Virus record (IMG/VR): IMGVR_UViG_3300024054_000027
Span: 1 to 42,588 of that record
Source: a virus
Reading direction: 5' to 3' (one strand)
DNA: 42,588 bases
The translations under genes and the position numbers were made by a program. The notes beneath the pieces were generated by a model. It did not search any database. It was not told where the DNA came from and was given only the letters and a program-made list of their open reading frames with translations. Shown one piece after another: positions 4,152-42,588 of the stretch (positions within the stretch are counted from its first letter, which is position 1; each line of letters opens with the position of its first letter).

Positions 4152-4180
4152 ATTATATAGTTATATCTATACTTTGTCAA
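4152..4180 (-). promoter_or_regulatory. Consensus sigma-70 promoter for the early small-gene operon
   Basis: On the minus strand TTGACA (4180-4175), a 17-base spacer, then TATAAT (4157-4152). Both hexamers are perfect and the spacing is optimal. The first downstream ORF starts 36 bases after the -10 box. An ATG-overlap chain of genes follows. Confidence 0.85.
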
Positions 4181-4607: not shown

Positions 4608-4745
4608 TTATTCCTTGCCTATGTATTTTCTGATTATTTTCTTAGACTCTTCCGGAATTGAACGAAAAAACACATCTTCTTCTTTTATATCTTCTTCTTC
4701 CTTGGATATTATTACGTTGCTATTTGGCAACACCTTGTTTTCCAT
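4608..4745 (-). CDS. Short ORF, possible C-terminal remnant of a replication initiator
   Basis: 45 residues from ATG at 4745, whose ribosome site AAAGGTG is itself part of a direct repeat. Asn and acidic residues (SKEEEDIKEEDVFF) resemble the linker after the repetitive 'KGV(S/A)K' segment of phage replication-organiser proteins. An upstream GTG at 4808 in the same frame is an alternative start. The normal C-terminal domain of such proteins is missing, so this may be a remnant, not a functional gene. Confidence 0.35.
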   Translation of the reverse strand: MENKVLPNSNVIISKEEEDIKEEDVFFRSIPEESKKIIRKYIGKE

Positions 4746-4815
4746 TTGGAAACACCTTTGTGTTCTTTCAGCAACACCTTTGTCTTGGGTGTTGCTATTT
4801 GGAAACACCTTTGTC
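4721..4815. repeat. Iteron-like direct repeats (origin candidate)
   Basis: Four copies of AACACCTT(T)GT on the plus strand begin at 4729, 4751, 4773 and 4803, spaced 22, 22 and 30 bases, so the first three lie on the same face of the helix. Two copies share the longer form TTGCTATTTGG(C/A)AACACC, and inverted partners (GGTGTT...AACACC) are present. Such spacing is typical of iterons bound by a replication initiator or of an operator array. It lies between a structured noncoding region and an early promoter. Confidence 0.55.
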
Positions 4816-4929
4816 TTTTTGTATAATCAATTTTTCTTCTTTAATCCGACGCATAGCTTGAGGGAGAAGAGGGAGGTTAATATACTTAGTGGATCAAAGC
4901 TTTAATTAAGTTATCTATGATCTCCTTTT

Positions 4930-5178
4930 GGTAATTCCCTTATAGGCTGGGCAGTCCACTGACTGTTGTTCCCCCAGCTTAAGTGCGGTTCCCCAGGGCG
5001 GATATTTCACCCATCACCATAACCTTCATGGTAAGCCGTCGGTCGTGTCGGTCGGTTAGCTGCAAATCTTATTTATCGTTTAACCAGTTTCGACTTCTTT
5101 ATTTTAACTCGCCTGGTGGGCTTGCAACTGTCCCTTAGTCTACGAGTTTAGGTTTTCTACGGGTATCCAACTCCCCCT
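4930..5178 (-). ncRNA. Downstream domain of a structured leader or long noncoding RNA
   Basis: About 250 bases with no convincing ORF. The minus-strand RNA can form several hairpins: AACUCG (5148-5143) with CGAGUU (5111-5106); UACCAU with AUGGUG around 5015-5033; and a compound hairpin GCUGGG/CCCAGC (4978-4973 with 4951-4946) capped by CAGUC/GACUG with an AGUG loop. GGGGGAGUUGG just after the U-tract could compete for AACUC, giving an alternative fold. It does not match what I remember of tmRNA, RNase P RNA or group I introns. It could be a leader of the early operon or a separate RNA. Confidence 0.45.
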
Positions 5179-5205
5179 AAAACAAAACCAGGCATTGCTG
5201 CCTGG
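5179..5205 (-). terminator. Intrinsic terminator or attenuator with GNRA loop
   Basis: The minus-strand RNA CCAGGCA (5205-5199), loop GCAA, UGCCUGG (5194-5188), then UUUUGUUUU (5187-5179). This is a classic rho-independent layout only about 80 bases after the transcription start, so it would end a short RNA or attenuate the early operon. Confidence 0.7.
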
Positions 5206-5282
5206 CATGTTGCGCCGGGGTAATCTTTGCAAAAACCCCCGTCGATAAAAAGCTATTTTGATATTGTGCAAAGATTAACATG
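5179..5282 (-). ncRNA. Candidate small RNA: bulge-loop pseudoknot plus terminator
   Basis: Starts at the expected start point of the promoter at 5289-5317. CAUGUUAAUCUUUGCA (5282-5267) pairs with UGCAAAGAUU (5231-5222) and AACAUG (5211-5206), making 16 bp interrupted by a 10-base bulge. The bulge's CCCCGGCG (5220-5213) can pair with CGACGGGG (5244-5237) in the apical loop, 7 of 8 pairs, giving a pseudoknot. Directly after comes a 7-bp hairpin with a GCAA tetraloop and a U-rich tract. No ORF fits. It could be a free RNA of about 104 nt or a riboswitch- or antiterminator-like leader. I do not recognise the class. Confidence 0.6.
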
Positions 5283-5288
5283 ATTGAA

Positions 5289-5317
5289 ATTATACTAGAA
5301 TTATCAATTCTTGTCAA
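5289..5317 (-). promoter_or_regulatory. Consensus sigma-70 promoter of the noncoding RNA or early leader
   Basis: TTGACA (5317-5312), 17-base spacer, TATAAT (5294-5289) on the minus strand; both hexamers perfect. Predicted start near 5282. There is no coding sequence for several hundred bases downstream, so its first product is noncoding RNA. Confidence 0.85.
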
Positions 5318-5326
5318 GCACTATTT

Positions 5327-5545
5327 TTAATCTGTGTATTCCCATTGGTGTTCAAATGAGTTATATCTAATTTTTTGATTGGCTGGGGCATATTCCCATT
5401 GGTGCTCAAACTGGTTGTATCTAATTTCATCTTTTGAATCGCCATATTCCCATTTACTAGAAAATTGATTGTATCTGATAATCTCTTCAGCAGAACAAGC
5501 AGTAACTAAAACTAACGAGAAGAAAACAACTAGTTTTTTCACCAT
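5327..5545 (-). CDS. Repeat lipoprotein (moron-like)
   Basis: 72 residues with a Lys-start hydrophobic signal peptide and a lipobox VTAC (C17), so the mature protein is probably an envelope-anchored lipoprotein. The rest is three 18-residue repeats of the form IRYNxFxxxWEY at residues 23-34, 41-52 and 59-70. It has a strong ribosome site and its own consensus promoter just after the late terminator, the layout of a phage moron. Small phage lipoproteins often block superinfection, so exclusion is a reasonable guess, but no homologue is named here. The repeats suggest a small beta structure binding a surface polymer or protein. Confidence 0.75.
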   Translation of the reverse strand: MVKKLVVFFSLVLVTACSAEEIIRYNQFSSKWEYGDSKDEIRYNQFEHQWEYAPANQKIRYNSFEHQWEYTD

Positions 5546-6904: not shown

Positions 6905-7201
6905 TTAAATTCGCACCTCAACATAATTAATAATTGGGTATCCTGTAACTACTCTATCTACGTCATGCGAGCATTCATGATAGAAGCGCAACCATTCAAT
7001 CCCTCCCCCAATTCGATACATAACTTTATTTGGTTGAAAACCTACGTTTGACAAACCTGCAATATAACTGCGAATGTCCCCATTTAAGTAGGCTATTCCC
7101 ATCTTGGCCTCTCCTTGAATCCCAGAAACAAATTGCCCACTATCTTCTCCCACATAAAACAAAACAGCTAAACAACTAATTATTAACAACCATTTCTTCA
7201 T
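6905..7201 (-). CDS. Exported hypothetical protein (98 aa)
   Basis: Signal peptide-like start MKKWLLIISCLAVLFYVG with no clear lipobox. The mature part contains WLRFYHECSHDVDRV, whose HECSHD looks metal-binding, though no protease family could be named. The start overlaps the stop of the 560-residue virion protein. Possible lysis accessory (spanin-like position) or periplasmic factor; not assigned. Confidence 0.55.
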   Translation of the reverse strand: MKKWLLIISCLAVLFYVGEDSGQFVSGIQGEAKMGIAYLNGDIRSYIAGLSNVGFQPNKVMYRIGGGIEWLRFYHECSHDVDRVVTGYPIINYVEVRI

Positions 7202-8880
7202 TGTTGGCTCATATTTTGTAAAATTGGAACTATTGCCTTACTTGTCGGAGGGATTCCTTTTAACAAAGAAGATAAGGCTGCTGTTCCTCTTAGTCCGGCA
7301 CCAACTAAAGCTGGTGAAGTTGTTGCTCCAAGCATTGCCAATGGAACACCCAAGGATGGACTTAATACTGTCCCTGCCCCAATCCCTACTCCGCCTAAAG
7401 TGCTAGGCACCCCGGCTCCTGGTCTAATAAATGGCTCAAACGCCTTAGCGGCTTCAGCTTGTTTTAATGTTTTACCAATTTGATATTTTTTGGGTAATAA
7501 CCGATCAAAAGCTCTTACAGCAGCCTGCAATTCTTCGCTTTTATTCTCTAAAGATTTTAATTTTTGTGGCAGAGACATAGACGTATCTTCAATTAACTTT
7601 TTAATTGGGGCTAGTTTTTCTTTATACAAGGAATAAATTTTGTTGGCTTTAACATAATTAGCTACTTCTGGGATTGTTTTTGCATCCCTACCTAGTTGAG
7701 TGTTAATTAGGTTTCTTATTCCTTTTAATAATTTTTCACCTTCAGTTGGAGCGGGGTTTAATCGATTAGATTGAGCAAAAGTTAAATTATCATCCAATAA
7801 TTTTTTCGCTTGGTGTAGTTTAGAGAATGTTATTTTATCGCCAAATCGTCCTTCTGGACTTTCCAGCATTTGATACAACTTATTTAATGTTTCTTTTTCT
7901 GATGCCGACATTCTATCAGCCCCAAGCCATTTCGCTTGTTTCTCTGCAACTGTTTGCAAGATATTGTCTTTTGTTTGTTGATAATTATAACTAACTTTAG
8001 ATAGTTTTGGCGCATTAGCAATTGAATCTTGAATTTCCAAACCTGCTCTTTTGCCAATAATTTCATTCCCTGTTTTTAGATTTTTGGCCAGTTTATCCCA
8101 TACCTGTTTGCCTCTTTGTTTGAAAACATTTGTTGTGTCAGAAATAGCAAGAAACACTTTATCTTCAGGTATCCCAGTTGTTTTGCTAAGTATTTTGGCG
8201 GTTACTTCACTTGCTTTAGGTGCAATCTTTTTTCCTAATTCTCCAGTTCCTTGAGCAACTGCTCCCACTGTCCCTTCAAAAAGAGCCTGTTTTACTCTTT
8301 CTTTGCCTGTTTCTGCTGGACGGGCAGCTCCAACAGCCGCCATTGGTAATGCTGCTTTAATAATATTAGCTAATGCCGGAGATTTTGCTGCTAGTTGAGC
8401 AATTTTAGGCATAGAAGCAATTGCCCCTACAGCCCCAGTTCCTGCCATATAAGGGGCAAATTGTCCGCCAAATTCTCCTACTTTGGACAAAGGAGTTTCT
8501 TTTTCTATTGGACTTACATATCCCAAAGAAGCTCCTTTCATCCCTCCCTGGACAAGTTCTTGCGCGGCCTTATTAAAAGGAAACAACATTTTAGAATATG
8601 CGGTTAATGCTTGCTCCACCGCACCTTTAATATCTTTTTTTTGGGCAGAAGAAATTGCTTGTTTAAGATTCTTTGTTCCAAGAGTTTCCGACACTTGAGA
8701 TACAATATCAGATGGCTGTTTATCTAATTGCTTTGATTTATCTGTTGGGAGATCTGTTATTTGTTCTTTGTATTGCGGATATTTAGTTATAATTTTATCA
8801 AACAAAATACTATCATCAATATTGTTATAATCAGGATACTTTGTTTTAATTTTTTTAATAAAATCTTGTTTAGTAACCAT
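7198..8880 (-). CDS. Large internal virion (ejection) protein
   Basis: 560 residues. A helical N-terminus begins IKKIKTKYPDYNN and repeats a similar unit (DKIITKYPQYKE). Then come Gly/Ala-rich hydrophobic segments (about residues 100-190), a long charged helical centre and another hydrophobic Gly/Ala-rich region near the C-terminus. No tape measure gene exists. Such proteins in podoviruses are packed in the capsid and injected to form a channel across the envelope. It is the last of a run of virion proteins and abuts the lysis genes. Function is inferred from composition and position. Confidence 0.6.
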   Translation of the reverse strand: MVTKQDFIKKIKTKYPDYNNIDDSILFDKIITKYPQYKEQITDLPTDKSKQLDKQPSDIVSQVSETLGTKNLKQAISSAQKKDIKGAVEQALTAYSKMLFPFNKAAQELVQGGMKGASLGYVSPIEKETPLSKVGEFGGQFAPYMAGTGAVGAIASMPKIAQLAAKSPALANIIKAALPMAAVGAARPAETGKERVKQALFEGTVGAVAQGTGELGKKIAPKASEVTAKILSKTTGIPEDKVFLAISDTTNVFKQRGKQVWDKLAKNLKTGNEIIGKRAGLEIQDSIANAPKLSKVSYNYQQTKDNILQTVAEKQAKWLGADRMSASEKETLNKLYQMLESPEGRFGDKITFSKLHQAKKLLDDNLTFAQSNRLNPAPTEGEKLLKGIRNLINTQLGRDAKTIPEVANYVKANKIYSLYKEKLAPIKKLIEDTSMSLPQKLKSLENKSEELQAAVRAFDRLLPKKYQIGKTLKQAEAAKAFEPFIRPGAGVPSTLGGVGIGAGTVLSPSLGVPLAMLGATTSPALVGAGLRGTAALSSLLKGIPPTSKAIVPILQNMSQQ

Positions 8881-32942: not shown

Positions 32943-33212
32943 TTACTCTTCTGCTATTTCACGGAAGATAATAGTTCTACGTTTTTTAAGATAGTCCATC
33001 ATTGCCCAAGAAGAACGGGTAATTAAGTAAGAGATGTTATAATGGGTTTTCTTAGTGCTTTTTAAGCGGTGAAGGGCAATAACGGCTTCTGGGAGTAATT
33101 CTTCTATTTCTATTTCTTTTTGCAGGCGGAATTTAATAAGGAGCCTACAAGAAACAGCCCTTAATTTCGGTTCTAGCTTAGGCCATAGGTTTTTTATTCT
33201 ATCAGCTCTCAT
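32943..33212 (-). CDS. Sigma factor region 2-like protein
   Basis: 89 residues. The stretch EIEIEELLPEAVIALHRLKS and NISYLITRSSWAMMDYLKKRR mirrors sigma-70 region 2 (acidic D/E-L-x-Q/P-E-A..., then F/Y-x-T/L-x-x-W-A-x-x-D-x-x-R). Regions 3 and 4 are absent, so it may be a minimal phage sigma, a coactivator, or a regulator. It sits just before the late control region, so a role in late transcription is plausible. Family assignment is by eye. Confidence 0.55.
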   Translation of the reverse strand: MRADRIKNLWPKLEPKLRAVSCRLLIKFRLQKEIEIEELLPEAVIALHRLKSTKKTHYNISYLITRSSWAMMDYLKKRRTIIFREIAEE

Positions 33213-33480
33213 TTATTTTCCCTATTATATCCTTTTTGTTTATCACTAAAAGCTCCGATCCGTTTAGTTCTCTTGCTCCCCAACGGAGAAAAACAACTGT
33301 TTCGTTTACTGTAAAGTCTTGCTGGTCGTCAGGGTGAACCTGCAACACCGTTGCAATATTGGGATATATTTGACGGAGTAATTGGGATTGACCATCCTGG
33401 AAGCCTAGAATTATGCCACTGTCTGTTTTCTGTTCAAGTTTAATTGGTTTTATTATTAGGTTATTTTTTAATGGTTTCAT
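33202..33480 (-). CDS. GroES (Cpn10)-like protein
   Basis: 92 residues. MKPLKNNLIIKPIKLEQKTDSGIIL is the GroES opening, and VLQVHPDDQQDFTVNETVVFLRWGARELNGSELLVINKKDIIG matches the barrel and the end strands. Phage GroES analogues replace host GroES on GroEL for capsid folding (as gp31 does in T4). The mobile loop is short. Overlaps the next gene by 11 bases. Confidence 0.7.
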   Translation of the reverse strand: MKPLKNNLIIKPIKLEQKTDSGIILGFQDGQSQLLRQIYPNIATVLQVHPDDQQDFTVNETVVFLRWGARELNGSELLVINKKDIIGKINES

Positions 33481-34801
33481 TTAACACTCTTTCAAACAAT
33501 TGCACCCATTCTTGTGCAATTTTATCCCAAGTTAGCTTAGTTATCCACTTATAAGCGTTATTAACGATGTGTTTCACATGAATGCTTTTCTTGTTATGGA
33601 AAATATATTCTACTTTTTGCGCTAAATCACAGGTATTAACAATTGGGCGTAAGCGGTAAAAATCCTCTGGGATTACGACTTTGGCAACTGGATCGACAAA
33701 GAAAGTCCGGTTATTTTCTCCTATCTCAATTAAGGAAGAGTGAGCAGGGATTAAAGTTGGTACTTTACAAGCCATTGCCTCTGTTACTGTTAGCCCCCAA
33801 CCTTCGCCTAATGTTGTTGTTACATACAAATCAGCACAGTTATATATTTTATTTAAGACTTCTTCTGAGATCCCTTTAATAAAATCAAAGTTTGCCGGCA
33901 TAATAACATTTGGCGGGGAACTAAATGCTTCCAGCACTTTAGAGAGGTTTCCTCCTATATCTTCGTTTTTGCAATGAAGATATAAGCGCAACTCATTTAT
34001 TTTACTGCGGGCATAAGAATATGCCTCAATAGTTCGAAAGAGAGACTTGCGGTGTTGGTTTCTGTTTATGTTTATTATTAAGAAGTCGTTTGGTTCTATG
34101 TTAAAGTATTGCTTCCTAAAATCTAATAACTGTTTTCTTGGAACGGGATAAAATGTTTCAGTGTCTATCCCATGATAAATATATGTTATTTTTCTTTTTA
34201 ATTCGTTTAATAGGAATTGCTGGAGCTTCTGATCGTTTGTTTTAGTTGCAACTTCTTTTTGCGCAACTCGCATTACTTCACCATAACCATACCGGGTGTA
34301 TACAACAACAAAATCGGCCTGTTTAATGGGGTTTAACTCAAAGTCTTTAAGTTGGCCATCAATAGGAGTGTAAATAATCCATTTAGTATTTACTTTATGC
34401 TGTTTCTTGGAAAAGTCTATTGCATTGCGAATGGTTTGGTTAAAACCTAATCGTTGGAAATCCAAGTTTGGGAGGTCTTGTAATGTTAGGATTAAATCAA
34501 ACGGTTCGTGAGCAATGAGCTGTAATAACTTCCGACGTCCAAACATATCGTTATCTTTATTGTTCCCAGCTGAAATTATGCGATAAGGAAGTGATTCTTT
34601 AATATATAAATCTATTTCGGGATCATCAAAATATTGTATCCCTAAAACAGTAATATCAAATTGGCCGGTTTTATTAAGTTGCTTTAATAAATTACGGCTA
34701 ACACAACCAAACCCAGTATTAGCAGTGGGAGAGTCACCATAAAACAATAGTCTGATCTTCTTTTTATTTGGGCTATGGATATTAGGCACTTGCTTTTTCA
34801 T
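33461..34801 (-). CDS. GT4-family glycosyltransferase
   Basis: 446 residues, two Rossmann-like halves. N-terminal half starts KKIRLLFYGDSPTANTGFG; C-terminal half contains YHGIDTETFYP, LIININRNQHRKS and the donor-binding EGWGLTVTEAMACKVPTLIP (E-x7-E region). Family 4 uses nucleotide-sugars and retains configuration. Its partners in the cassette suggest attachment of an amino sugar or of further hexoses. Overlaps the next gene by 20 bases. Confidence 0.78.
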   Translation of the reverse strand: MKKQVPNIHSPNKKKIRLLFYGDSPTANTGFGCVSRNLLKQLNKTGQFDITVLGIQYFDDPEIDLYIKESLPYRIISAGNNKDNDMFGRRKLLQLIAHEPFDLILTLQDLPNLDFQRLGFNQTIRNAIDFSKKQHKVNTKWIIYTPIDGQLKDFELNPIKQADFVVVYTRYGYGEVMRVAQKEVATKTNDQKLQQFLLNELKRKITYIYHGIDTETFYPVPRKQLLDFRKQYFNIEPNDFLIININRNQHRKSLFRTIEAYSYARSKINELRLYLHCKNEDIGGNLSKVLEAFSSPPNVIMPANFDFIKGISEEVLNKIYNCADLYVTTTLGEGWGLTVTEAMACKVPTLIPAHSSLIEIGENNRTFFVDPVAKVVIPEDFYRLRPIVNTCDLAQKVEYIFHNKKSIHVKHIVNNAYKWITKLTWDKIAQEWVQLFERVLNETIKK

Positions 34802-35573
34802 AAGTCCAATCCTCCTTGATTCTTAAAGGGATAAATGCAGTGTTGCGCCAGCGATCGTTCCAATGCCACCAGGCCTCATCATTTATTTCGGCCGTCTTAG
34901 GGAACTCTTGGACATATTCTTTAGTGGCATAAGTCCCACCGCTTAGATGATCGAAACTGACGGGAACAATTAAATTATAAAAACCACCCTTTATTGAAGA
35001 GAGAGAAATGTCATAATCATAAACATAGTGATAGGAACCATAATCAAAAAAGCCGCCAACATAATTTAACATTTGCATATTACAAATCAAAACCGCTCCT
35101 TCAACAATCACACAAGGAAACGGGGTGGTTCTTCGCTTGCCATGCCCTTCGGCATTGGCTTTGAGGTTAGAAGCAAAACCCATTCGACAACCACCTCGAT
35201 CAATTCCAACCGCTCCAGCAAAACCAACAACTCCAATAGGATGATTGCTTTTTTTTATCGCTTTTTCTATCTTTTCGTCCCATTTTTCCTCATAAATTAT
35301 TATGTCGTTGTGTAGGAAAGCCAGCCAATCACCAGTACATTTCTGCCAGAGTTGGTTGTAAGACTTTATTAAACCAACATTTGTTTCGTTTTCCAGGATT
35401 ATTGTGTTGTATTTGCCTAAATATGGCATAATAATCTTTTCAAAGTCCTTGTCTTTACCGTTGTTTAATAAAATAAGCTCGTGAATGTTTAAGTTGCAAT
35501 TGTCAAGGTTTTTCAATATTCTTTCCAGGTGCTTTAATTGATGATAATTAGCGATTCCTATTGATAGTTTCAT
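34782..35573 (-). CDS. Family 2 glycosyltransferase A
   Basis: 263 residues, single GT-A domain. MKLSIGIANYHQLKHLERILKNL, LLNNGKDKDF, GLIKSYNQLW and DWLAFLHNDIII (the HND stands in place of the usual DxD metal site) mark the family. The C-terminus has YHYVYDYDISLSS. It is coupled by overlaps on both sides. Sugar specificity unknown. Confidence 0.75.
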   Translation of the reverse strand: MKLSIGIANYHQLKHLERILKNLDNCNLNIHELILLNNGKDKDFEKIIMPYLGKYNTIILENETNVGLIKSYNQLWQKCTGDWLAFLHNDIIIYEEKWDEKIEKAIKKSNHPIGVVGFAGAVGIDRGGCRMGFASNLKANAEGHGKRRTTPFPCVIVEGAVLICNMQMLNYVGGFFDYGSYHYVYDYDISLSSIKGGFYNLIVPVSFDHLSGGTYATKEYVQEFPKTAEINDEAWWHWNDRWRNTAFIPLRIKEDWTYEKASA

Positions 35574-36043
35574 GCCACCAGTTCCTCCAAGTTTTTTGAA
35601 TAAATATAGACTGTCTGACCATTGACGGTCTTTTCCGAAGAAAGAGTGAACCCGTTATTAGTGCAAACTTTAATCGATGGGATATTAGTTGTTTTTATTT
35701 CACAAATTAATCCTTTTGCGTTGTGGTTTGTCGCCATTAGCTTACAAAATTCTCCCAGCAATTTTGTTGCACATCCTTTACCACGGAACTGCTTTTTTAT
35801 CTTGTACCCACATTCGTAAACATCAGGTTCGCTATATTTTTTAGCGTTGAAATAACCGATACAATAATTATCATACATTGCCAAATAGATTAATTCGTTG
35901 CCGGGTAGAACTTGAGTGTGATAGAACTGTTTTGCGTCAGCTAATGTTATCTTTCTGTCATCCAACAGATCGGCACAACATTCATTTCTGGTTATCATCA
36001 GCTCTTTAACTTTTTGTTTTGTTAAGGTGTCAAACCACAGCAT
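35570..36043 (-). CDS. GNAT N-acetyltransferase
   Basis: Start chosen at ATG 36043; an upstream in-frame ATG at 36076 would lengthen the overlap with the previous gene. About 157 residues. VYECGYKIKKQFRGKGCATKLLGEFCKLMATN includes the acetyl-CoA loop Q-x-R-G-x-G. Beside an aminotransferase, it probably acylates the amino sugar made by that enzyme, but other substrates are possible. Confidence 0.75.
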   Translation of the reverse strand: MLWFDTLTKQKVKELMITRNECCADLLDDRKITLADAKQFYHTQVLPGNELIYLAMYDNYCIGYFNAKKYSEPDVYECGYKIKKQFRGKGCATKLLGEFCKLMATNHNAKGLICEIKTTNIPSIKVCTNNGFTLSSEKTVNGQTVYIYSKNLEELVA

Positions 36044-37205
36044 TGTATTTTCTTCCAAAATCCTTAATCTGAGCAATTATATAGGCTTGCTCAAGTTCGG
36101 TTAATGACGGGTAACAAGGTAAAGATAATAGTTTTAACCATTCTCTTTCCGTAACCGGACAACACTCTCGGCATTTATTTTGGATATTGCCAGAGAAATA
36201 CTTAAACTCATACATTGGTTTGTAGTGAACACCAGTCGCAACGCCTTTTTCTTTTAAGAAAACATTTAGTTCGTTGCGGTATTCTGTGCGGATATGATAA
36301 ATATGCTGGGCGGAAACAACATGATCGCTGATTACTGGGGTAGCAAGCCATTCCTGGTCAGCTAATTCTGCGTTGTAAATTGCGGCAATATTTCTCCGGC
36401 GCGCATTACTGCTTTCCAGTTTCTTTAATTGTTCAATGCCGAGTGTTGCAATCAGATCGTTCATATGCATTTTATAGCCGAGTTGTTCTATTTCATATTC
36501 CCAACCGTATGACATTTTAAGGTTTTCATCTTTTGCCCGATCAAAGGTCGATTTGTTAATACCAAACCAACGGGAAGAGATTAACTTTTTATATAATTCC
36601 TCATCGTTAGTTGTTATCATCCCACCATCGCCACAGGCAATATTTTTAACAGCGTGGAAAGAAAAGCAACCCATTGTTCCTAAACTTCCAGCCATTTTGT
36701 CATCTTCAAAACCAGTAATACACGATCCAGCCGCATGAGCACAATCTTCAATTACCGGATAAGTCGAACAATTAAGAATATCCGGCATCATGTTGCCGTA
36801 TAAATGCACAGGAATAATTGCCGTTCTTGTTGCGTCTAACCCCCAATCTTCAATGGCTTTCCAAATGGTTTCATTGTTTATCATTAAGTTTGCTGGATCA
36901 ACATCGGCAAAAACAACCTTATATCCTTCATAAATTGGCGCAAAGGCAGTTGAAATAAAAGAGATTGAAGGAACAATATAGGTAAAATCTTTTGGCAAGT
37001 CTAAAGAACGAACAGCTAATTGAAGAGCAGAAGTACAGGAATTAACCCCAACCGCATACTTAACTCCAATATAGTCAGCAAACATCGTTTCAAATTCCTT
37101 GGTCTTTGGTCCCAAACCCCACCACTTGCTTTTAATTGTTTTCGCCAGACTCTTTGCTTCCTTCTCATCAAACATTGGCCTAAACAGTTCTATTTCAATG
37201 GACAT
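36030..37205 (-). CDS. DegT/DnrJ-type sugar aminotransferase
   Basis: 391 residues, full length. Features: GVNSCTSALQLAVRSL (phosphate-binding loop), VIEDCAHAAG with D154, and FSFHAVKNIACGDGGMITT with the PLP lysine K187. This family transaminates keto-sugars on nucleotide carriers with glutamate as donor, producing amino sugars for polysaccharides or antigens. Here it precedes the GNAT and three glycosyltransferases in one overlapping block. Confidence 0.85.
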   Translation of the reverse strand: MSIEIELFRPMFDEKEAKSLAKTIKSKWWGLGPKTKEFETMFADYIGVKYAVGVNSCTSALQLAVRSLDLPKDFTYIVPSISFISTAFAPIYEGYKVVFADVDPANLMINNETIWKAIEDWGLDATRTAIIPVHLYGNMMPDILNCSTYPVIEDCAHAAGSCITGFEDDKMAGSLGTMGCFSFHAVKNIACGDGGMITTNDEELYKKLISSRWFGINKSTFDRAKDENLKMSYGWEYEIEQLGYKMHMNDLIATLGIEQLKKLESSNARRRNIAAIYNAELADQEWLATPVISDHVVSAQHIYHIRTEYRNELNVFLKEKGVATGVHYKPMYEFKYFSGNIQNKCRECCPVTEREWLKLLSLPCYPSLTELEQAYIIAQIKDFGRKYNAVV

Positions 37206-38025
37206 AAGTCAACTCCTTTTCTATTAATTTTGTGTTTATTTTCAGCAATCGTGGTTGCCAAATCTCCAACGCTTCGTTGGTTAAGATGTTCATAGTGTCG
37301 ATAAAAGAGTCTTTAATCCCAAAATACTTAAAAGCATATGCCTGATCCTTGGCTGATTTTTGGCCTATTTGATGTTTTACTGATAGATTGGTTTTAAGGG
37401 TAGCACTACCCCGATGGAGAATAATTGCGGGAGCAAAAGTTACCCCCGTTAAACCTCTTCGGTTTATTTCTTCCGCATGAATGTTGTCGCCATAATAATC
37501 AACAAGTGGATTAAGTAGCCCGGCTTTTTCCATCGCCTCGCTGTCCCACACAAAGATCGTATAACAACCGCCATAAGTAAAATATGGTTTTGTTATGTTA
37601 TAGTTAAAAACATATTGCTTGGCTTCTTCCAATGATTTGCGGTCATCTTCTCTCACATCCACACCGGAAATTTTAACTATTCTGTCATCCTCACGATTGT
37701 CCCACGCCCAAACTAACGAATCAATGGTCTCTCGTCGACAGATAACATCATTATTAGAATAAATAACATGAGAATATAGATCACGATTTTTTGCCTCCAT
37801 CATTAAAGCGTTAAATGCCTGGGAAATACCAAGATTATGACTGCATTTGATTATTGTGGAGTGGGGGATTTCATCTTCCAGCCACTCCGATGATCCATCA
37901 GTTGATCCATTATCAAAAAAGATAAAATCCAGGTCATAATGACTAGACTTCACTGAGTGGACAAAATCCTTTGTAAATTCCAAACAATTAAACACTGGAC
38001 AACAAATAACTACTCTTTTAGACAT
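37195..38025 (-). CDS. Family 2 glycosyltransferase B
   Basis: 276 residues. VICCPVFNCLEFTKDFVHSV, FIFFDNGSTDGSSEWL and VIYSNNDVICRRE (NND at the metal position) identify a GT-A fold of family 2. It is related to, but not a close duplicate of, 34782-35573. The first 8 bases overlap the preceding gene's stop. Confidence 0.77.
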   Translation of the reverse strand: MSKRVVICCPVFNCLEFTKDFVHSVKSSHYDLDFIFFDNGSTDGSSEWLEDEIPHSTIIKCSHNLGISQAFNALMMEAKNRDLYSHVIYSNNDVICRRETIDSLVWAWDNREDDRIVKISGVDVREDDRKSLEEAKQYVFNYNITKPYFTYGGCYTIFVWDSEAMEKAGLLNPLVDYYGDNIHAEEINRRGLTGVTFAPAIILHRGSATLKTNLSVKHQIGQKSAKDQAYAFKYFGIKDSFIDTMNILTNEALEIWQPRLLKINTKLIEKELTYVH

Positions 38026-39187
38026 AACAATACCACACCTGCCTTGTTGGGACTCTATCCATTCGACAAAACCACGGACTTAAATCTTTTATATTTGTTC
38101 TAAAAGAATCACCAATTAACTCAACTTTCTTGAAATTGTTTTTTAAGGCCTGATATACTTGTTCACGATTATCTTCGTTATAAGTTAACTCACCAATAAA
38201 GACTTCTTTAGTCACGCTTTTTATTTTAGCAAACACTTCTTCAATTGAATATCGCTGATAAAAGACATACTCAACCGCCAAGGCAAGAACAAAGTCGTAT
38301 TGAGTCTCAAAATTATAGGTCATAAAATCGGCGTTGATAAAAGTAATAGGACGTTTCCTAAACTTTTGGAGGAAGACTGCCGCGTCATAAAACTCCTTGT
38401 TTAATTCTATGCCGGTAACTATTCCATTGTTAGCTGCCAAATAACTAATCTCTCCAATATTACAACCAATATCCAACAGAGTTTTTCCCCACAAATTAAA
38501 ATTATTCATCAACAAAACTTGCAGCCATTTATAAGGTGGGTCAGACATCCCCTCATTTTTAATTCCATTTCCGTAATCAAAACTCTGGTATTGAAACACC
38601 TGATAATCTGGCGCAATATTATGGCTAGTTTTATATTCCAAGAATTCTTTTTTTCTTGCCTGCAAAGTGCTTTCAATATTAAGAGAAAGAAAGTCAAGAA
38701 CAAAATCCAGCGCGGTCACTATTGAATCAAAAGTTTTTGTTTCTACTTTGCGGGAACATACTAGCTCATAAGCAACCGTTGCCCCTTCATAATAGTTCTT
38801 ATTTTTCAAACATCTTTCAATAAACTCGCCATAATTTACATTTCCAATAATAAGGTTTTCTTCTTTATATTTATGCGCTTTTTTAACATTTGCCTTCCAG
38901 TCAGCATAATTTAATTTTAGATGAATATTAAGAACAGCATAGGACGGATCAGTTAGGTCAAAAATAAATGGGGGTTGAGTTTCAATAATCAAAATTGAGA
39001 CGCCTGTTTTTTCAAAACATTCTTTTATTCTACTTTTAAGTTTTTCTTCACTTGTTAAATCCCAGCAAAAAACATCTAAAACATCTATTATGTGTTCCTT
39101 GCTTGTTTTTTTTATTAGTTGTTGTGCAAAATATGTTTTTCCGGTGTTAGATAGGCCGGTTATCATAATGCACAATTTTTGTTGCAT
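38018..39187 (-). CDS. P-loop kinase-like and SAM methyltransferase fusion
   Basis: 389 residues. N-terminal domain (about 1-165) has a Walker A GLSNTGKT (11-18) like small-molecule kinases such as adenylylsulfate kinase. The C-terminal domain has the SAM motif LLDIGCNIGE (237-246) with an acidic residue at VTGIELNKEF, a class I methyltransferase. The linkage of a kinase to a methyltransferase next to glycosyltransferases suggests modification (phosphorylation then methylation) of a sugar chain end, as known for O-antigen chain terminators. That parallel is inference. Confidence 0.72.
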   Translation of the reverse strand: MQQKLCIMITGLSNTGKTYFAQQLIKKTSKEHIIDVLDVFCWDLTSEEKLKSRIKECFEKTGVSILIIETQPPFIFDLTDPSYAVLNIHLKLNYADWKANVKKAHKYKEENLIIGNVNYGEFIERCLKNKNYYEGATVAYELVCSRKVETKTFDSIVTALDFVLDFLSLNIESTLQARKKEFLEYKTSHNIAPDYQVFQYQSFDYGNGIKNEGMSDPPYKWLQVLLMNNFNLWGKTLLDIGCNIGEISYLAANNGIVTGIELNKEFYDAAVFLQKFRKRPITFINADFMTYNFETQYDFVLALAVEYVFYQRYSIEEVFAKIKSVTKEVFIGELTYNEDNREQVYQALKNNFKKVELIGDSFRTNIKDLSPWFCRMDRVPTRQVWYCYV

Positions 39188-39839: not shown

Positions 39840-39980
39840 TCACATCCCCCTTGTTAAAACGCTATTAGCGGAAGGTTTTGGGGGTTCCTTATGTTTTTTA
39901 TTCAAAATGAATGGTTTGGGGTCAATCGATAAAATAACGTTGCTCAAATCTAATTTTTCTATTTTTACAGGCGTATCCAT
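39840..39980 (-). CDS. Small hypothetical protein (46 aa)
   Basis: ATG at 39980 overlaps the TAA of the methyltransferase gene (TAATG) with GGGGGGTGAAAA as ribosome site. Sequence includes VKIEKLDLSNVILSIDPKPFIL, then Lys/Pro-rich residues. Such small ORFs after methyltransferases are common, function unknown. Confidence 0.5.
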   Translation of the reverse strand: MDTPVKIEKLDLSNVILSIDPKPFILNKKHKEPPKPSANSVLTRGM

Positions 39981-41230
39981 TATTTTTCACCCCCCAATCT
40001 TAATTCCGACCATTTAACACCGTCTTCTCTTATTGGCTCTTGTCCTGTATAGTCTGCCCAGCGTTGCAAAATTACGTCGATATAGATTGGGTCAATTTCC
40101 ATCATGTAACATTTGCGGTTTAGCTTTTCGCAGGCGATAAGAGTGCTTCCACTACCACCGAATAGATCAAGGATGATATTATTTTTTTCGCTTGAATTTA
40201 TTATTGGTTTTTCTATGATAGCTATGGGCTTCATTGTTGGATGCAAATCACTTTTCTGCGGTTTATTAACCATCCATACGCTTGTTTCATTATGCCCACC
40301 AAACCATCGATGGACTTCTTTTTCTTTCCACCCATAAAAAATTGGTTCATGCTGATAATGATAATCCATTCTGCTTAGTACATGATTATTCTTAACCCAA
40401 ATCATCATATGTTTTAAGTTCCAGCCAGATTTTAATATCATCATCATCATCATCAAATCTCCACCTTGCATCGCATTTATATAATAGCAAGAATTTTCTT
40501 TTGTAAATTTATAAGCATTGGTAAACGCTCCTCTCCATAATTCCCCCATTTCTTCTTTGCTTTTATGGTCATTTTTAATTGGGTATTGAATGCGATTGGC
40601 AAGGGAAATCGCATTCAATGCCTTATTTTTATCCGCATAACATACGCCATAAGGTGGATCAGTTATAAATAAATCCGCCTTTTTATTATTCATCAATCTT
40701 TCCACATCTTCTTTTTTTGTACTATCCCCACAAAGTAACCTATGATGATTTCGAAATGTCCACAAATCACCAATCTTACTTTTAGCATCTTTAGGCATAT
40801 CTGGGACATTATCGTCTTGGTCATTATCTGGTGCGTAATTAGAAAGCAACTTATCAAGGTCTGTTGTTTTTCCAAGGTCAATGTTGAAATCTTCCAACTC
40901 AATATCTTCTCTAAATGGATAAACCAATTCAGCAAGTGCGTCTTCTTCATAAAAACCATAGCGCTGGTTATCAATAAGGTTGTATTCGATAATCTCTTTT
41001 TCGGAAGTTGTTTTAACCTCTGATACCCAAATATCATCAATCCCTAGTTCTTGGTAAGCACGGTATCTCATATTACCACCGAGAATAATTCCATCCTGAT
41101 TTATAACTATTGGCTTAAATTGACCATATTTTTTTATGTGTTTCTTAAGTAATTCAAATTGTTTTTTATTTATCCCCCTTGGATTTTTCTCGTATAACTT
41201 GAGTGTTTCTCTTTTCCTAAAATCTTTCAT
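39980..41230 (-). CDS. ParB-like domain fused to a DNA methyltransferase
   Basis: 416 residues. Residues 1-120 form a ParB/sulfiredoxin-like domain (IVINQDGIILGGNMRYRAYQELG, IEYNLIDNQR). Residues 165-400 are an amino-methyltransferase with DPPY (191-194) before FGGSGST (357-363), the beta-type motif order. It methylates adenine N6 or cytosine N4 in phage or host DNA, likely to evade restriction. Such fusions are common in phages. No restriction partner is seen nearby. Confidence 0.82.
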   Translation of the reverse strand: MKDFRKRETLKLYEKNPRGINKKQFELLKKHIKKYGQFKPIVINQDGIILGGNMRYRAYQELGIDDIWVSEVKTTSEKEIIEYNLIDNQRYGFYEEDALAELVYPFREDIELEDFNIDLGKTTDLDKLLSNYAPDNDQDDNVPDMPKDAKSKIGDLWTFRNHHRLLCGDSTKKEDVERLMNNKKADLFITDPPYGVCYADKNKALNAISLANRIQYPIKNDHKSKEEMGELWRGAFTNAYKFTKENSCYYINAMQGGDLMMMMMILKSGWNLKHMMIWVKNNHVLSRMDYHYQHEPIFYGWKEKEVHRWFGGHNETSVWMVNKPQKSDLHPTMKPIAIIEKPIINSSEKNNIILDLFGGSGSTLIACEKLNRKCYMMEIDPIYIDVILQRWADYTGQEPIREDGVKWSELRLGGEK

Positions 41231-41925: not shown

Positions 41926-42588
41926 TCATGTTAAAATTAATGGTTTATCTTCTGATTGATTTCTCCAATTAAGTGCCTGTTTAACAGTTTTGCAATCTTC
42001 ATGTATTCCTTCCACATGATAAATCCCTTTTAAGCTCGGATTTTCCATCACTAAATACGGTGCATAAAAACCAGTTCTAAATATTGGGCCAAAATCAACT
42101 AATTCATAACCATTGCTTTTCTCAATTGATGTTGCATGATTAAGTAATTGATCTAACCCAATTTTACGGACAAATTCCCTTCTTATTTCAGCATTATCAA
42201 TATCTTTTATCTGTTCAGGTTTCAAATCTTCTTTTTTAGTATCAACTAACCATTGAGGAACTCTTACCCCATTTAATGCAAAGACAGAAAATCCATCGGG
42301 ATATGCAATCGCAGGGCCAGTTTCAGAGTGTATTCTTCCATCTTTTAGTTTGCAGATATTATGACGTTCAGAAATCCAACAAATATTCTCATGAGGTAAA
42401 AACCAACCAGCATTTTTTGCAATAATCCATAGTCCTTTAAGCTTTTTTGTTTGTTGTTCTAATCTTAGGACATTACTAAAGTAATCATAAAATCCTAACC
42501 AGTTAGCATCATGTTGCCCGTACCCGCTATCCCAGATGCTATTACCTATTCTATCGCTATAACTGAAATTAGCCTGGATACTATTCCA
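41926..42588 (-). CDS. DUF6745-like protein, C-terminal part (continues at 679-1)
   Basis: The C-terminal part of the gene that starts at 679. It runs through 42440-41926 to TGA and contains AKNAGWFLPHENICWISERH, GRIHSETGPAIAYPDGFSVFALNGVRVP, the signature of the DUF6745 family I recall, and a helical end. The bases 42441-42588 overlap the left end; the last 22 bases (42567-42588) differ from 127-148 but stay in frame (W-N-S-I-Q-A-N-F in place of the left-end repeats). So the window shows two versions of the repeat array. The function of this family is unknown. Confidence 0.75.
   Translation of the reverse strand, partial: WNSIQANFSYSDRIGNSIWDSGYGQHDANWLGFYDYFSNVLRLEQQTKKLKGLWIIAKNAGWFLPHENICWISERHNICKLKDGRIHSETGPAIAYPDGFSVFALNGVRVPQWLVDTKKEDLKPEQIKDIDNAEIRREFVRKIGLDQLLNHATSIEKSNGYELVDFGPIFRTGFYAPYLVMENPSLKGIYHVEGIHEDCKTVKQALNWRNQSEDKPLILT
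42441..42566. repeat. Terminal overlap, copy 2
   Basis: Exact copy of 1-126. Supports circular closure at about 42,440 bp. Both copies lie within the DUF6745-like gene. The 22 bases past it differ from the left copy. Confidence 0.9.

Follow-up and report, generated by a model that had tools for sequence, protein, structure and literature searches.

Introduction

H-type pseudoknot riboswitches, including the fluoride, preQ1, and SAM-II classes, have a hairpin loop that pairs 3′ of its own stem, with a terminator nearby. Among phage RNAs, the late-leader 6S RNA of lambda is Q-dependent. This 6S RNA is also counted as an Hfq-dependent phage sRNA, and intergenic sRNAs encoded by phages include lambda OOP, P22 sar, lambda PreS, and VP882 VpdS (PMC12197685). 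Other sRNAs are started by an internal promoter within an mRNA locus and ended at the terminator of that mRNA (PMC9438474). The put RNA of phage HK022 is a structured RNA of approximately 70 nt that lies directly after an early promoter and consists of two stem-loops with a minor-groove triplex (PMC9378689). Here, a candidate sRNA locus of an uncultivated bacterial virus is described and compared with these systems.

Genomic Context of the Candidate Locus

The virus is represented by the record IMGVR_UViG_3300024054_000027, of which positions 1-42,588 were analyzed (42,588 nucleotides; hereafter, the window). Positions 1-126 of the window are identical to positions 42441-42566, forming a 126-bp terminal repeat, and the final 22 bases are divergent. 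Joining the ends at this repeat keeps a 397-codon frame intact without a shift; the protein was assigned to DUF6745 by family match and carries SVxDS-type repeats. Given the terminal repeat and the unbroken DUF6745 frame across the join, the viral genome is probably circular and complete, with a length of approximately 42.4 kb (~42.44 kb). All gene calls, including the longest ORFs, are on the minus strand, making the genome one-directional, and no tRNA or tmRNA was found. A region at 33202-39187 contains a Cpn10-like ORF together with a cassette of glycosyltransferases, a DegT aminotransferase, a GNAT acetyltransferase, and a methyltransferase, which suggests surface-sugar modification. At 39980-41230, a ParB-N domain is fused to an N6/N4 DNA methyltransferase.

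The candidate locus is placed between the lysis genes and a downstream region that is called early from its position. Upstream of it are genes for an M23 peptidase (family match), a protein that reads as holin-like, and a predicted small lipoprotein in which RYNxFxxxWEY occurs three times (a 54-bp repeat in the DNA), and the lipoprotein gene stops just upstream of the -35 element of the sRNA promoter. The neighboring features are as follows:

5596-5568, minus strand: promoter of the lipoprotein gene
5327-5545, minus strand: small predicted lipoprotein gene (72 aa), upstream of the sRNA
4925-5180, minus strand: GC-rich noncoding island (~45-51% GC), directly downstream of the sRNA terminator

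The island contains strong local hairpins, and its surroundings have ~33% GC. It was considered as a larger structured RNA, which was not supported: its fold was no better than those of shuffles (z = -0.27) and had no Rfam match. No homologue of the island was found, including by a pattern scan. Farther downstream, 22-bp tandem repeats (AACACCTTTGT..TTTGGAAACACC) occupy 4722-4780, with similar units up to ~4810, beside short ORFs that resemble broken gene pieces. These repeats are possibly origin iterons.

Promoter and Terminator of the Candidate RNA

An earlier note on this DNA had described a perfect TTGACA-17-TATAAT promoter, a noncoding segment, and a GCAA-capped hairpin with a U-tract placed directly after a long helix, and all three were found again. 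Every element of the segment 5179-5282 is on the minus strand, which the note had left unstated. The elements of the transcription unit are as follows:

5289-5317, minus strand: sigma-70 consensus promoter (-35 TTGACA at 5317-5312, 17-nt spacer, -10 TATAAT at 5294-5289; 12/12 match)
5179-5282, minus strand: predicted small RNA (putative start 7 nt past the -10 element, putative 3′ end in the T-tract)
5179-5206, minus strand: intrinsic terminator (7-8 bp stem, GCAA loop, U-tract UUUUGUUUU; terminator hairpin at 5206-5187)

Promoter activity is predicted from the sequence; transcription would start near 5282 and yield a transcript of ~95-104 nt. The terminator hairpin reads CCAGGCA GCAA UGCCUGG followed by UUUUGUUUU, with the tract TTTTGTTTT in DNA letters, and stands flush on the outer helix of the RNA; it may be common to the sRNA and the upstream mRNA. 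The ORFs overlapping the segment are short, have non-ATG starts only, and include none with a plausible start, and none is convincing as a gene.

Four promoters in the window match at 11/12 positions or better; all lie on the minus strand and cluster at the early region, from 5.6 to 3.6 kb. They include two further strong promoters at 4180 and 3665. The spacer of the sRNA promoter is filled by a perfect palindrome, AGAATTGATAATTCT (5311-5297), which has no other exact copy in the window and is a possible operator. When terminators of the scanned kind were considered, a single pair of a promoter (at least 11/12) and a terminator within 200 nt was identified in the window, at 5317, and no such pair appeared on either strand in 200 mononucleotide shuffles of the window. 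This result is independent of the RNA fold. As expected of a stand-alone sRNA gene, the locus has its own predicted promoter and a Rho-independent terminator 50-300 nt downstream of it. Given this unique pair and a fold motif that is absent from shuffles (see below), the sequence makes it very likely that an RNA gene is present at the locus.

Predicted Structure of the RNA

From 5′ to 3′, the RNA consists of CAUGUU, AAUCUUUGCA, a 35-nt loop, UGCAAAGAUU, ACCCCGGCGC, and AACAUG, followed by the terminator. Its elements are as follows:

5277-5282, minus strand: outer helix A, 5′ strand CAUGUU, pairing with 5206-5211
5267-5276, minus strand: stem S1, 5′ strand AAUCUUUGCA
5245-5266, minus strand: loop L1, A/U-rich, 22 nt, the main presumably unpaired segment of the proposed fold
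5237-5244, minus strand: pseudoknot S2, loop strand CGACGGGG, with the core CGGGG at 5241-5237
5222-5231, minus strand: stem S1, 3′ strand UGCAAAGAUU
5212-5221, minus strand: bulge ACCCCGGCGC, with the S2 strand CCCCGGCG at 5220-5213
5206-5211, minus strand: outer helix A, 3′ strand AACAUG

The 16-bp helix with a 10-base bulge that had been reported for this segment corresponds to a 10-bp stem with a flush 6-bp outer helix; in DNA letters, CATGTT AATCTTTGCA faces TGCAAAGATT ACCCCGGCGC AACATG, giving 6 + 10 bp and a one-sided bulge of 10 nt. The reported complementarity between bulge and apical loop also holds, with 7 of 8 positions of CGACGGGG and CCCCGGCG pairing, five of them as contiguous G-C pairs, and an S2 duplex energy of -12.2 kcal/mol. 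Dinucleotide shuffling of the 77-nt body, repeated 30,000 times, produced a perfect stem of at least 10 bp in 84 cases, none of them with the outer helix flush against it. The composite motif was found at one locus in the window, against an average of 0.00 loci in dinucleotide-shuffled genomes, or 0.05 when the stem was relaxed to 8 bp. The loop-bulge pairing by itself had p ~0.003-0.009. Because the motif was defined after being seen, all of these values overstate its significance.

The plain fold energy of the segment is unremarkable (z = -1.85), and the nested minimum-energy fold differs from the structure in the earlier note. For the first 77 nt, the nested optimum of -13.2 kcal/mol retains S2 and helix A and loses S1. 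The component energies are -7.7 kcal/mol for S1, -3.8 kcal/mol for helix A, and -8 to -11 kcal/mol for S2, and their sum, after subtraction of a pseudoknot penalty that was estimated rather than computed at several kcal/mol, is approximately equal to the nested optimum. In the proposed geometry, S2 would be stacked below S1, whose deep groove would be crossed by a U-rich linker; helix A would be compatible with the five-pair G-C core of S2 and strained by the full eight pairs. A loop-bulge pseudoknot is plausible, but the nested alternative is about as stable, and no homologue was found for a covariation test.

Searches for Related RNAs

The class of the RNA had not been recognized in the earlier note, and the covariance models of Rfam (release 15) agreed in giving no match at the gathering score. 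The best sub-threshold matches were at chance level, such as Hrs12 with 19.9 bits against a cutoff of 70, a score owed mainly to the terminator hairpin. Neither Rfam nor IMG/VR, INPHARED, or PLSDB yielded a homologue. The blastn search of INPHARED gave no real match, and PLSDB gave a 37-nt match on Borrelia plasmids (E = 0.3) that was taken as chance. Pattern scans of IMG/VR returned one match inside a terminase gene and 51 others without the stem, and a search of genome contigs returned only a distant M23 peptidase. A single-sequence covariance model, applied to a total of 742 kb from relatives and other loci, had a best non-self E value of 0.25, and the other matches in a motif scan of all fetched loci lacked the architecture and lay mostly in GC-rich sequence.

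Searches with terminase, capsid, or peptidase led to two closest viruses, IMGVR_UViG_3300031707_000142 (terminase 66%, capsid 72%) and IMGVR_UViG_3300025152_000090 (terminase 59%, M23 peptidase 56%). The former record ends within the homologue of 7198-8880, and the latter, apparently trimmed, ends at the stop codon of a lysis-region gene. Since both records stop just before the locus, the absence of the RNA from them is no evidence.

Possible Functions of the Candidate RNA

The best explanation, at even odds (probability about 0.5), is a free and stable phage sRNA that acts in trans, either through its A/U-rich loop of 22 nt or by serving as a protein ligand. An RNA of ~95-104 nt would be transcribed on the minus strand from a consensus host-type promoter located past the last gene of the lysis region and ahead of the early region. 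It would end at the intrinsic terminator, possibly in common with the upstream mRNA. The broken 16-bp helix would close the extreme 5′ end of the RNA, and the G-C pairing of bulge and loop could lock it into a pseudoknot, leaving L1 and the U-tail as exposed parts. Such an RNA would most likely accumulate as a stable species and act in trans, either by base pairing of L1 to an mRNA of the phage or host or through protein binding. Pairing of the loop to the gene starts of this phage was in no case above that of shuffled loops, and a host target is therefore as likely.

The earlier note had considered a designed RNA, namely a riboswitch, an antitermination element, or a free regulatory RNA. Of this proposal, an independent small RNA that has its own promoter and terminator is supported, and a terminator-type riboswitch or attenuator is disfavored: the best competitor for the terminator arm had -7.6 kcal/mol, which 55% of shuffles reached, and Rfam was silent.

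A rather unlikely alternative to the free sRNA is a cis-acting leader of the early region, in which transcription would continue beyond the terminator at 5187 into the early genes, either because the nascent structured RNA modifies RNA polymerase, in the manner of put, or because a phage factor allows read-through, as Q does at the lambda late leader. The RNA begins at a promoter that heads the early region, the downstream genes all run in the same direction round the circle, and put is likewise a structured RNA of ~70 nt directly past an early promoter (PMC9378689). However, the fold is unlike the two published stem-loops of put, the promoters at 4180 and 3665 could serve the early genes alone, and the terminator immediately follows the element with no competing antiterminator.

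The RNA could also be a decoy or sponge whose pseudoknot body titrates a host or phage protein, such as an RNA-binding regulator or a defense component. We consider this unlikely; the compact closed fold, the strong promoter, and the lack of a detected base-pairing target in the phage are consistent with it, but no known RNA matches in sequence or structure, and no particular protein is indicated. Similarly doubtful is the proposal of a new phage RNA class, in which the loop-bulge pseudoknot would modify transcription or sequester a host factor at the onset of the early program of an uncultivated phage lineage.

It is improbable that the segment is the ordinary 3′ end of a late or lysis mRNA, with a terminator after a chance inverted repeat and a weak or unused promoter-like sequence. 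The lipoprotein gene, which stops just upstream of the -35 element, does need a terminator, and promoter-like sites are common in AT-rich DNA (15 found at low stringency compared with 8.1 expected), but shuffles contained neither a 12/12 promoter at most 200 nt from a terminator nor the flush helix pair. An element acting as DNA, such as a replication or recombination site or an operator in the noncoding gap, is highly improbable: the adjoining GC-rich island and 22-bp repeats and the palindrome in the promoter spacer would suit it, but neither a one-sided bulge with complementarity to the loop nor an exact placement from start site to terminator has an obvious rationale at the DNA level.

Phage small RNAs beyond a few model phages have barely been charted. 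Being well delimited and located at the only transcription hub of an uncultivated phage, this candidate would offer a concrete test of expression and of regulation of the phage program by RNA; one sequence without relatives cannot alone establish a class or be generalized.

Comparison With Known Systems

The candidate resembles OOP, sar, PreS, and VpdS in being a small RNA of a phage with a proposed role in regulating phage or host genes, and OOP also has its own promoter and ends at an intrinsic terminator, as the candidate RNA does. In contrast to these four RNAs, the candidate has no annotated antisense gene, no target was found for it, and no sequence relation was detected. Their folds are not known to resemble its proposed pseudoknot. 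Like the H-type riboswitches, the candidate has a loop that pairs 3′ of its stem with a terminator nearby; it differs from them in having no Rfam match, no competing antiterminator, and a distant next gene.

The candidate shares with put the position of a structured phage RNA right after an early promoter and ahead of terminators. However, instead of the two adjacent stem-loops within ~70 nt described for put, its predicted fold has one long stem with a loop-bulge pseudoknot and a terminator; their sequences were compared through the Rfam scan only. The lambda 6S RNA is likewise a short leader RNA with an intrinsic terminator near the start of a phage operon, but the candidate lies after, not before, the late genes, and no Q-like factor was identified. 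Like the sRNAs of mRNA loci (PMC9438474), the candidate is situated where an upstream gene ends, has its own predicted promoter, and would stop at a terminator that this gene could use too; the known examples are mostly chromosomal, and in the candidate the promoter lies after the stop codon. Overall, the locus reads as a credible orphan sRNA gene, and phage sRNAs of this kind are already known.
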